Of a stretch of 32,489 nt of DNA, positions 11,501-26,750 are shown in pieces. The first letter of the stretch is position 1. Each line of letters starts with the position of its first letter. The notes beneath the pieces are model-generated. The model saw nothing but the letters and a program-made list of their open reading frames with translations. It was not told where the DNA came from and did not search any database. The position numbers were made by a program, and so were the translations under genes. The stretch is from Gammaproteobacteria bacterium (GTDB lineage Bacteria; Pseudomonadota; Gammaproteobacteria; SURF-13): contig JAURVQ010000110.1 of assembly GCA_030655395.1 (NCBI GenBank), forward strand, positions 1 to 32,489, given 5' to 3'.

Positions 11501-11615
11501 GCAGGTGGCGCACGCGATTCATCCGCATCCTACCCAAACCGAACTGTTCGGCGACATGGCTCGACGCTTGTTGTCGCGCCTGCGGCGTACGGAAAAAGTA
11601 GCAAGTGGTAAGTAG
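8520..11615 (+). CDS. Dihydrolipoyl acyltransferase (E2) fused to dihydrolipoyl dehydrogenase (E3)
   Basis: 1031 aa. Order: lipoyl domain 1 (about 5-80, lipoyl lysine K45 in ETDKAIMD); Ala/Pro-rich linker; lipoyl domain 2 (about 128-203, K167, same motif); peripheral subunit-binding domain (about 262-300); E2 catalytic domain (about 325-530, H504 in DHRVVNGA); E3 (about 542-1031). E3 has the FAD motif [10 protein letters not shown], the redox cysteines C582 and C587 in CLWRGC, the NAD motif [16 protein letters not shown] and the C-terminal His/Glu pair in HPHPTQTE. The chain moves the acyl group to CoA and re-oxidises lipoate, with E1 from the gene upstream. The Asp usual in the E2 motif HxxxDG is Asn (N508). 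Its 3' end lies in a heptad repeat and gives the tail EKVASGK. argG follows after 2 nt. Confidence 0.92.
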
Positions 11616-11618
11616 AAA
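11598..11618 (+). repeat. Three 7-bp tandem repeats at the E2-E3 stop / argG start
   Basis: The heptads GTAGCAA, GTGGTAA and GTAGAAA follow directly on each other. The last contains the TAG stop of the E2-E3 gene, and its final A is the first base of the argG ATG. The same degenerate unit (GNNNNAA) builds the larger arrays at 17599-17682 and 25654-25731. Confidence 0.55.
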
Positions 11619-16916: not shown

Positions 16917-17588
16917 TTATGCGTCGCTGCGCTTCAGCGCGAGCGTGATGCCGTCCGCGACGGGAAGCAGGCTCAAGGTGATGCGCTCATCGTGCAGAAG
17001 CTTTTCATTGAGCGCGCGGATCGCCACGGTGCCCTCGTCGTGCACGCTGGGGTCGGCTACGTCGCCGTTACGCAGCATGTTGTCGAACATGATCAGCCCG
17101 CCGGGGCGCATGAGTTGCAGCGTGCGCTCGTAATAATCGTCGTAGCCGGTCTTGTCGGCGTCGATGAAGGCAAAATCAAATGTGCCGGCCTCGCCGTTGT
17201 GCAATAAACGGTCGAGGGTGTCGCGTGCCGGCGCCAGGTGCAGCTCGATCTTGTGCGCGACGCCTGCTTCCTGCCAGTAACGCCGCGCGATCTGTGTCCA
17301 TTCATCGCTTACGTCACAGGCGACGAGCTTGCCGCCGGGCGGCAGCGCCATGGCCACGCACAACGAGCTGTAGCCGGTGAACACGCCGATCTCCAGTGCC
17401 TTTTTGGCGCCCATGAGCTGCACCAGCAGCGCCATGAACTGGCCTTGCTCGGGTGCGATCTGCATGATGGCGAGCGGGTCACGCGCAGTTTCCGCGCGCA
17501 GGCGCTGGAGTAATGGCGGCTCACGCAAGGAGACGCGCGTAATGTAGTCGTACAGGGAATCGGTCAGCGTGATGGATTTGTTGGTCAT
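16917..17588 (-). CDS. SAM-dependent O-methyltransferase (caffeoyl-CoA O-methyltransferase family)
   Basis: 223 aa. Class I methyltransferase fold: the SAM-binding motif ALEIGVFTGYSS (residues 64-75), VACDVSDEW after strand 2, FAFIDADKTGYDDYYE with metal-binding acidic residues near 141, and GLIMFDNMLRNGDV for the second metal/substrate segment. The family methylates catechol-like hydroxyls with Mg2+; bacterial substrates are mostly unknown. I chose ATG 17588 because the conserved part begins there; the frame stays open upstream to 17660 but that portion encodes the heptad-repeat region and is probably not translated. No clear ribosome binding site is visible. Lies between tsaB and the RpfE-type gene on the same strand. 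Confidence 0.88.
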   Translation of the reverse strand: MTNKSITLTDSLYDYITRVSLREPPLLQRLRAETARDPLAIMQIAPEQGQFMALLVQLMGAKKALEIGVFTGYSSLCVAMALPPGGKLVACDVSDEWTQIARRYWQEAGVAHKIELHLAPARDTLDRLLHNGEAGTFDFAFIDADKTGYDDYYERTLQLMRPGGLIMFDNMLRNGDVADPSVHDEGTVAIRALNEKLLHDERITLSLLPVADGITLALKRSDA

Positions 17589-17598
17589 ATTAGAAACA

Positions 17599-17682
17599 GT
17601 GACAAGTAGCAAGTTACAAGTGGCAAGGAGGATAATGATGGTAGCGATGTTTGCTTGCAACTTATAACTTGCTACTTGCTAC
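17599..17682. repeat. Opposed arrays of degenerate 7-bp repeats (tsaB / O-methyltransferase junction)
   Basis: Left arm 17599-17626, read forward: GTGACAA, GTAGCAA, GTTACAA, GTGGCAA. Right arm 17655-17682, read on the minus strand: GTAGCAA, GTAGCAA, GTTATAA, GTTGCAA. The arms are inverted with a 28-nt spacer, so a transcript could fold into a long imperfect hairpin (21 of 23 bases pair in one stretch). The right arm encodes the last residues and the stop of tsaB. Confidence 0.75.
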
Positions 17683-18380: not shown

Positions 18381-18500
18381 ACTTCCCGCTACGTCCCCGC
18401 CCCTTGTTTAGGGGGCGGGACAGGGTGGGGGTAGGGTAAATACGGTATTTACTCAGGAGACACAATTTGTGAGGTGTCGCCATTAGTGTGTCTCCTGAGT
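18381..18500. repeat. ~120-bp repeat, copy 1, with 14-bp inverted repeat at its end
   Basis: The first part holds a strong GC hairpin (CCCGCCCC...GGGGGCGGG, about 18393-18419) followed by ACAGGGTGGGGGTAG; the second part (18451-18500) is a 50-bp unit with perfect 14-bp inverted ends, ACTCAGGAGACACA and TGTGTCTCCTGAGT. A copy in the same orientation lies at 20451-20571, just upstream of the same helicase gene. The last T of the unit is part of that gene's TGA stop (18500-18502). No ORF is encoded. The 139-nt gap between tsaB and the helicase gene is almost wholly this repeat. Confidence 0.75.
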
Positions 18501-20431
18501 CATGTTACATCCTCGGCGGCGAAAAATTCTTCGACGTCGGTCACGCTGCGCGTGAGCGGCACGGGCGGCAGGCTGTTGATAAAAATCTTGCCATAGGATT
18601 TGCTGAACAGACGCGGGTCGCACAGCATCAACACGCCGCGGTCGCGCGTATCGCGGATCAGGCGTCCGACGCCCTGCTTGAGGGCGAGCACCGCTTGCGG
18701 CAGTTGATAGTCGATGAACGGGTTGCCGCCCGCCGCGCGCAGCGCTTCAAGGCGGGCCTGCATCAGCGGATCGCCGGGCGAGGCGAAGGGCAGTTTGTCG
18801 ATGATGACGCATGACAGCGCCGGGCCGCGCACATCGACACCCTCCCAGAAACTTGCGCTGCCGAGCAGTACAGCGTTGCCGAGTGTGCGGAAGCGGTCGA
18901 GCAATTCCGCGCGCGGCGCGCTGCCTTGCACCAGCAGGGGAAAGCCGAGCCTGTCCTTGAGCAGCTCTGCCGCTTCACGCAGCGCGCGGTGACTGGTGAA
19001 CAGCAGGAAGGCGCGCCCGCCGCTGGCGTTGAGCACCGGCAGCGCGGCTTCGATCACGGCGGCGGTGTAGTGCGCCTCCGCGGGGTCGGGCAGATTGCGC
19101 GGCACGTACAGCAGGGCGAGGCGGGCAAAATCAAACGGACTGTCCCAGCGCCGGGTGATGGCGTCTTGCAGGCCGAGGCGGGCGGTGAAGTGCGCGAAGC
19201 TGTCGCCGACCGCGAGCGTCGCTGAGGTGAAGACCCATGCGCACTTTTGCGCCTGAATGCGTTCGTGAAATTGGTGGGCGATGTCGACCGGGGTGAGGTT
19301 GAGCGTGAAGGCACGCGTCCAGGTTTCAAACCAGGCGACGTGGTTCTCCGGCGCCGCTGCGGTAAAGAGTTCGAGGCGCTCCTGCAATGCAATACAGCGC
19401 CGCCAGCAATTTTCCAAACCCTTGCCACGCACCGCTGCGACTTCCAGCACATTTTGTAATCCGTTGAGCGCCTGCTCCAGTGCCTTCAACGCGGAGGTAA
19501 ACGCGGCCTGCTGTTGCACTTCGCGCCATGCGCCACGGCGCTCGTCCACACCGAACGCCAGACGCAGATCGCGCGTCGTCTTTTCCAGGTGCTCCGCGGT
19601 GGTAGCGAGTTCACGCATGTCGCCCGCCTCCTTGAGGTATTCCGCTACCGTGTCCTGGGCAAGATCGATGAGCTGGCGGCTGCCAAGGGCGACGCCGAAA
19701 AATCCGGCGGCGATCTCCGCCAGTTGATGCGCCTCGTCGAAGATGACGCCCTGCACGCCGGGGAGCAGATCACCGAAGCCCTCCGCGCGCAGCGCCATGT
19801 CGGCGAAGAACAGATGATGATTGATGACCAGCACGTCTGCCGCCTGCGCTTCGCTGCGCGCGCGAAACACATGGCAGTCCTTGAGTGATGGGCACTGTTG
19901 TCCGAGGCAATTGTCGGCGGTGCTGGTCACCTGCGGCCAGAGCGCGGAGTCCTCGCGTATGCCGGACAGCTCGGCGATGTCGCCGCTCTTTGTCTGCCCG
20001 GCCCAGGCGCGGATGCGCGCTAGTTCCGCAGTCTGCGCGGGCGCGTGATAGCGTTGCTGCTGTTCCGTCAACTCCAGCCGATGCAGGCACAGATAGTTCG
20101 CGCGTCCCTTGAGCAGGGCCACGCGGCCCGGTGCGGCGAGCGCCGCACGCACGGCGGGGAGATCACGCTGGTACAACTGATCCTGCAGGGTCTTGGTGGC
20201 GGTGGAAACAATGATTTTTTTACCGGACAGCAACGCGGGCACGAGATAGGCGAAGGTCTTGCCCGTGCCGGTGCCGGCCTCGGTGATGAGTGTGTCCTGA
20301 TTGGCCAGCGCATCCGCCACGGCGTCGGCCATTTCCTGCTGCGCTACGCGCGCGGCAAAGCCTTCGATACCACGCGCGAGCGGGCCGTCCGGGCCGAAGA
20401 TGCTGGCGGGGGAGTGCGTGAGGTTGCTCAT
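18500..20431 (-). CDS. yoaA: ATP-dependent DNA helicase, YoaA/DinG (XPD-like Fe-S) family
   Basis: 643 aa, the length of YoaA. Superfamily 2 helicase: Walker A EAGTGTGKT (residues 51-59), motif Ia STATKTLQDQL, DEAH box (232-235), and the C-terminal GSASFWEGVD and GVGRLIRDTRDRG motifs. Four cysteines (C115, C175, C180, C186) in the right place bind the [4Fe-4S] cluster of the XPD-like group. The family unwinds 5'-tailed DNA; in E. coli, YoaA works with HolC in repair of replication damage. The shorter length and the tsaB neighbourhood favour YoaA over DinG. Its stop codon coincides with the end of a repeat, and a second copy of this repeat lies about 20 nt upstream of its start. Confidence 0.93.
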   Translation of the reverse strand: MSNLTHSPASIFGPDGPLARGIEGFAARVAQQEMADAVADALANQDTLITEAGTGTGKTFAYLVPALLSGKKIIVSTATKTLQDQLYQRDLPAVRAALAAPGRVALLKGRANYLCLHRLELTEQQQRYHAPAQTAELARIRAWAGQTKSGDIAELSGIREDSALWPQVTSTADNCLGQQCPSLKDCHVFRARSEAQAADVLVINHHLFFADMALRAEGFGDLLPGVQGVIFDEAHQLAEIAAGFFGVALGSRQLIDLAQDTVAEYLKEAGDMRELATTAEHLEKTTRDLRLAFGVDERRGAWREVQQQAAFTSALKALEQALNGLQNVLEVAAVRGKGLENCWRRCIALQERLELFTAAAPENHVAWFETWTRAFTLNLTPVDIAHQFHERIQAQKCAWVFTSATLAVGDSFAHFTARLGLQDAITRRWDSPFDFARLALLYVPRNLPDPAEAHYTAAVIEAALPVLNASGGRAFLLFTSHRALREAAELLKDRLGFPLLVQGSAPRAELLDRFRTLGNAVLLGSASFWEGVDVRGPALSCVIIDKLPFASPGDPLMQARLEALRAAGGNPFIDYQLPQAVLALKQGVGRLIRDTRDRGVLMLCDPRLFSKSYGKIFINSLPPVPLTRSVTDVEEFFAAEDVT

Positions 20432-24528: not shown

Positions 24529-26750
<2,222 letters not shown>

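Follow-up and report, generated by a model that had tools for sequence, protein, structure and literature searches.

The window, a stretch of 32,489 nucleotides from a gammaproteobacterial genome, carries two opposed arrays of degenerate heptads at the junction between tsaB and the gene that follows it. The features of this junction and the related arrays elsewhere in the window are:

16917 to 17588, minus strand: co-directional gene downstream of tsaB, methyltransferase-like by reading
17599 to 17626, plus strand: arm 1, four heptads, GTGACAA GTAGCAA GTTACAA GTGGCAA
17627 to 17654: loop, the 28-bp spacer separating arms 1 and 2
17655 to 17682, minus strand: arm 2, four heptads, GTAGCAA GTAGCAA GTTATAA GTTGCAA
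17683 to 17689, minus strand: outer unit of arm 2, degenerate, GAAAAAA
17662 to 18360, minus strand: tsaB, matching TIGR03725 over residues 4-219 of 232; arm 2 encodes its KVASSKL and stop
11591 to 11618, plus strand: solo degenerate arm just before argG
25654 to 25731: second inverted element, at the queA/tgt junction, GATACAA GAGGAAA GATACAA GATACAA ... GAGAAAA GAGGCAA GTGAAAA GAGAAAA

The initial annotation had described two opposed arms of four GTNNCAA heptads each, able to pair and supplying the end of TsaB. The arms are real and far above chance. Structure prediction bears out their pairing: minus-strand RNA, the strand of tsaB, has a predicted fold of -42.5 kcal/mol (z -6.75; none of 200 shuffles folds as well), and the plus-strand RNA has a predicted fold at z -4.2. 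The first three units of arm 2 are the codons closing tsaB, and the array does supply both the tail codons and the stop; the peptide first given as KVASSK, however, omits one leucine, the protein ending in ...TWKKVASSKL*. The downstream gene, for which no NCBIfam match was found, likely starts at an ATG ~11 nt beyond arm 1. Genes were called with a small hexamer-based finder, and starts are approximate; a TTG start called at 17660, within the array, was set aside and the ATG conserved in relatives was preferred. An Rfam search of the window returned tRNA only, with no match to the array element. Another inverted repeat, TACTCAGGAGACACA ... TGTGTCTCCTGAGT (18448-18502), separates tsaB from the helicase-like gene next upstream; it is not a heptad array.

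We compared this junction with five other genomes of the same family (G001-G005, the window's genome being G000). In 5 of 5 relatives, tsaB and the downstream gene are adjacent without any array, and TsaB ends after its conserved core in LSERIL, LSDQPTL, QGSQV or CE; the tail VASSKL is absent from all of these repeat-free homologues. G001 TsaB is 89% identical to that of the window, yet the element is absent. Since the five relatives lack the element and have other tails, comparison of the sequences indicates that the array at the tsaB end was gained in the lineage of the window's genome. The proposal that entry of an array re-tails a protein holds for tsaB against the five relatives and also for a second gene: the upstream gene at L181 ends in GVK* at the empty site in G001 and in SEAEKR*, within the array, in the window's genome. 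No target-site duplication is recognisable at tsaB, at L181 or at the cas10/cmr3 junction described below, and the old spacer appears to have been replaced. Absence of the tail from array-free homologues and the finding of further arrays in the genome were tests set beforehand; both were run and the reading withstood them, the second yielding dozens of arrays.

Pattern searches and sampled stretches describe these arrays genome-wide. In the 1.72-Mb genome, runs of three GTNNCAA units number 43 and runs of four GNNNNAA units 116; when either pattern is reversed, the count is 0. The GNNNNAA arrays divide into a GT vocabulary (GTAGCAA, GTTACAA, GTGACAA, GTGGCAA and others) and a GA vocabulary (GAGAAAA, GATACAA, GAGGCAA, GAGCAAA). 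A sample of 38 stretches contains 33 opposed pairs, and exactly four units are present in 44 of 66 arms. The constant heptad positions are nearly invariant, and neighbouring units within arms differ from each other. Agreement between the two arms at the variable positions is, in the window's genome, no better than in arm-swap and order-shuffle controls; pairing therefore depends on the constant bases, which gives a stem interrupted at regular intervals. The notion of a finely selected RNA stem was dropped because the arms of this genome do not covary beyond these controls. A transposase gene as the content of the spacer was likewise rejected, as the arrays at L142, 1.3 kb apart, enclose an ordinary sugar-epimerase-like gene. 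The solo arm before argG encodes the tail KVASGK* of a pyruvate dehydrogenase E2/E3 fusion ORF, in nearly the same words as the TsaB tail.

Plain heptad microsatellite slippage, selfish only at the level of replication error, would fit the unit numbers that differ at orthologous sites (L203 vs L238) and the difference of one heptad among Coxiella strains (PMC4990558). But adjacent units differ, arms usually have four units, and slippage can neither create inverted pairs nor enclose one protein family, as the arms described below do. Slippage is refuted as a full explanation and has next to no probability; it may still alter the number of units.

The elements occupy short gaps between co-directional genes. 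Of the 31 elements with both neighbours called, 29 have co-directional neighbours, 2 convergent and 0 divergent ones, compared with 65, 10 and 23 among the remaining junctions that are 60 bp or longer (p=0.002; p=0.09 without the length filter). The first arm contains or overlaps the upstream stop at 14 of the 29 co-directional junctions; at the other 15 the stop ends 4-10 nt ahead of the arm. The next start lies 1-11 nt past the second arm in 15 co-directional cases. The outer edge is often TAA-NRCA next to the stop and TGCCTTTATG next to the start.

A stable predicted stem on both strands, with a T-run after the plus-strand stem, could suggest bidirectional terminators, or hairpins for mRNA processing, that arose at their present sites. 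An intrinsic terminator, however, is expected where transcription should end, and 29 of 31 elements lie within co-directional runs, often 7-11 nt before the next start, where termination would silence the next gene. In addition, the variable positions show no covariation, and the arms around the IVP genes introduced below have no sense-strand G-U preference (48 vs 52), the 30 vs 17 in small elements being suggestive at most. We consider such an origin improbable.

REP elements prefer transcribed untranslated gaps behind stop codons and avoid divergent promoters. The arrays have the same bias, as would be expected of REP/BIME-like extragenic palindromes spread via the RAYT/Y1 transposase. Nevertheless, Y1 transposase (PF01797) has 0 matches in the window's genome, a draft that is 98% complete, although some relatives have it. 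The arms are heptad arrays around a variable spacer instead of a fixed imperfect hairpin, and what they enclose is IVP, not Y1. A spread of the REP kind is therefore very improbable.

An orthologous junction was found in G001 for 30 array rows (29 elements). The vocabulary is kept in 10 of the 30 rows, 12 hold GTNNC[GT]A heptads, 3 hold octads of the ACGCMAAG type, and 5 were scored empty, including L173 (a shortened element) and L184 (ambiguous); besides tsaB, two further junctions are empty in G001. Some sites are kept in place between the two genomes. There are junctions at which both have an element with conserved flanks, and sometimes a conserved loop, yet with different heptad vocabularies. 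At L190/L244 and L199/L249, the spacer and borders are conserved and the arm vocabulary differs, so that the arms appear to have been rewritten in place. In G001, inverted octad elements of the form ACGCAAAG ACGCCAAG ACGCAAAG ... CTTTGCGT are located at L229, L248 and L220, orthologous to L174, L196 and L172, which are heptad elements in the window's genome. L173 (2487-2574) and L227 of G001 carry the spacer in opposite orientations with respect to the flanks, as if by recombination between the arms. The spacer readings at L190, L199 and L173 were made by eye.

A distant arm pair in the window's genome (L187, 84-501) encloses a 118-aa ORF that matches PF05635 (E=1.5e-32), the 23S rRNA intervening-sequence protein (IVP), and also TIGR02436, a four-helix bundle; its nearest solved relatives are 2gsc and 2rld. 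An IVP gene is present in 6 of 6 family genomes, and in each of them at least one arm-bracketed copy stands at a rpsI–IVP–tRNA-Gln junction; a further copy in G004, at another site, has GTGAGGS heptads. The IVP arms are of GA type in G000 and G005, GTNNC[GT]A in G001 and GTNNCAA in G002. The GA-type short elements share arms with the window genome's own, single IVP element, whose arms are GAGAAAA/GAGGCAA/GATACAA. The tsaB element has no IVP ORF inside, and no vocabulary-matched IVP helper for its GTNNCAA arms was found in the window's genome; an IVP with arms of that vocabulary is present in G002 and others. The short elements of the family genomes, counted as GTNNCAA / GTNNCKA / GANNMAA, are:

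G000: 43/26/88
G001: 23/109/31
G002: 9/33/6
G003: 3/55/2
G004: 1/1/102
G005: 25/5/89

The commonest of the three counted vocabularies is that of the IVP arms in only 4 of 6 family genomes, and this match is suggestive, not proof.

Across bacteria, inverted flanking arrays bracket 100 of 112 IVP loci from 50 genomes, a locus being counted as bracketed when its 5'/3' inverted match lies above all 60 dinucleotide shuffles; the other 12 did not pass this threshold. At IVP loci, the tandem period that fits best is 7 in 95, 8 in 10 and 9 in 5. An inverted match was obtained for 4 of 68 control genes (p=3.5e-31 against the IVP loci, which share genomes and hence are not fully independent). PF05635 occurs in 42 of 47 array-bearing genomes vs 8 of 50 array-free class relatives (p=8e-14), and in 0 of 14 named controls. 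The array-bearing genomes span many phyla, and IVP genes on cyanobacterial and Riemerella plasmids likewise have inverted arrays. IVP copies each have their own heptad (GTTCAAG, AGGGGTC, GTTGAGA, TGTAAAC and many others), and GTNNCAA arms flank only 12 of the 104 IVP copies retrieved from array genomes, which are part of all copies. Going by the names of MAGs and genomes, the exact inverted GTNNCAA pattern occurs, among the matches listed, in Gammaproteobacteria (Muproteobacteria, Acidiferrobacterales, Thiohalomonas), Acidobacteria/Pyrinomonadaceae, Verrucomicrobia/Opitutae, Planctomycetes, Saprospiraceae and other Bacteroidetes, Patescibacteria, Omnitrophota, Calditrichaeota, KSB1, Gemmatimonadales, Chloroflexi and Acidimicrobiia. 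The pattern was found in 0 of 50 genomes from other families of the class to which the window's genome belongs. L095, L128, L130, L145 and L169 (Singulisphaera MAG) matched the inverted pattern, and no array of at least 3 units was decoded there. The opposed-arm architecture is restricted neither to gene ends nor to the window's genome: IVP-bearing elements have it as their terminal structure.

Alternatively, the arrays could be immobile chromosomal sites for a regulator or nucleoid protein, with one contact per heptad and with IVP inside some of them by chance. Independent protein contacts would fit the invariant constant positions and the freely differing variable ones, some sites occupy the same places in G000 and G001, and IHF/HU binding has been proposed for the class 3 paired sites of Geobacter metallireducens, five tandem MTYCTGA heptads in opposed pairs (PMC2700814). 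Such sites would leave unexplained why 100 of the 112 IVP genes, from 50 genomes, have arrays on both sides and why each has a heptad of its own. In addition, the positions are at stop codons, not promoters, and the empty sites are unaccounted for. We regard regulator sites as an unlikely explanation.

IVP elements are also found in CRISPR operons, at L374 (cas10/IVP/cmr3 in Picosynechococcus PCC 7003) and L377 (cas6/IVP/cas4 in Anabaena). The cas10 stop of PCC 7003 is now a TGA in the arm; PCC 7002 lacks the element and has a 12-nt gap between cas10 and cmr3. These elements are likely hitchhikers, and hitchhiking may be the reason why PF05635 is listed among CRISPR-linked domains (PMC10910872). 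A search of phages for IVP found no relative.

Taken together, we put at roughly two in three the probability that the tsaB array is an ORF-less derivative of a selfish element, resembling the 23S rRNA intervening sequence (IVS), that inserts at stop/start junctions. The full-length element consists of two opposed arms, each of about four degenerate heptads (28 bp), around the PF05635/TIGR02436 IVP gene, and short derivatives retain the arms around a spacer of ~10-120 bp. The elements sit in short co-directional gaps, at or a few bases past the stop and usually ~7-11 nt ahead of the next start. Once transcribed, the arms may fold into a long interrupted stem, the base of which would bring together the stop and the start codon. 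RNase III may trim this stem, as it does that of the 23S rRNA IVS, and insertion would then cost the host little. The comparisons establish the architecture, the placement, the gain of elements at sites that are empty elsewhere and the enclosure of IVP genes by such arms; we infer that IVP acts on the arms, in their mobilisation, maintenance or rewriting, and that the element moves by or with IVP. A wider proposal is more tentative and less likely than not: IVP elements might be a widespread mobile class in mRNA operons, in which the four-helix ring of IVP recognises heptad arms in trans and a shift of its specificity leads to genome-wide rewriting of the arms, with position and spacer kept.

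The arrays at tsaB look like a pared-down copy of a selfish element, previously known from bacterial rRNA genes, that is scattered through operons in many phyla and as a rule carries an IVP gene. PF05635/TIGR02436 proteins are common orphans of no known function, labelled 'four helix bundle' or 'S23 ribosomal' protein, and the inverted heptad arrays around IVP at operon junctions offer a candidate substrate for them. Genes neighbouring IVP may have been misinterpreted, CRISPR linkage being one example. Unexplained heptad repeats and the spread of 23S rRNA IVSs become one problem, and through these elements essential genes such as tsaB can gain new C-terminal tails.

Our search of freely accessible papers found no report of dispersed heptad pairs linked to IVP, and searching by the repeat letters returned no paper. 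Several known systems share part of the architecture. The TAACTGA heptamers of Beggiatoaceae (PMC4679880) and cyanobacterial STRR are also intergenic heptad arrays adjoining coding sequences, but they are direct instead of inverted pairs and have one fixed heptad without a degenerate vocabulary. REP/BIME are palindromic and extragenic, lie behind stop codons and avoid divergent promoters; they differ in having a fixed hairpin core and the Y1 (RAYT) transposase. According to the published description, the Geobacter metallireducens class 3 sites are opposed tandem-heptad pairs, intergenic and multicopy, whereas they were read as regulator binding sites and no link to IVP was drawn (PMC2700814). 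The DGR accessory protein Avd belongs to a homologous four-helix family (PMC10053308); the array elements showed neither a reverse transcriptase nor a template/variable repeat.

The closest precedent is the 23S rRNA IVS, not the cyanobacterial direct heptads to which the initial annotation had pointed. In Coxiella burnetii, the IVS has a 28-bp terminal stem, within which RNase III cleaves to excise it, and tandem GACAGAT heptamers, whose number varies between strains, beside an IVP ORF whose protein is thought not to be produced (PMC4990558). Four heptads are also 28 bp (4 x 7). Both systems have a PF05635 ORF in the loop, 28-bp terminal inverted repeats, number-varying tandem heptamers beside the ORF and a sporadic distribution, and the tsaB element, too, has terminal inverted repeats that are predicted to form a stem. 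Unlike the 23S rRNA IVS, the tsaB element sits at a junction of protein genes and not within an rRNA gene. In general, the elements described here are dispersed in protein operons at stop/start junctions with many copies per genome, are mostly ORF-less, use several vocabularies per genome and have both arms built wholly of degenerate heptads.
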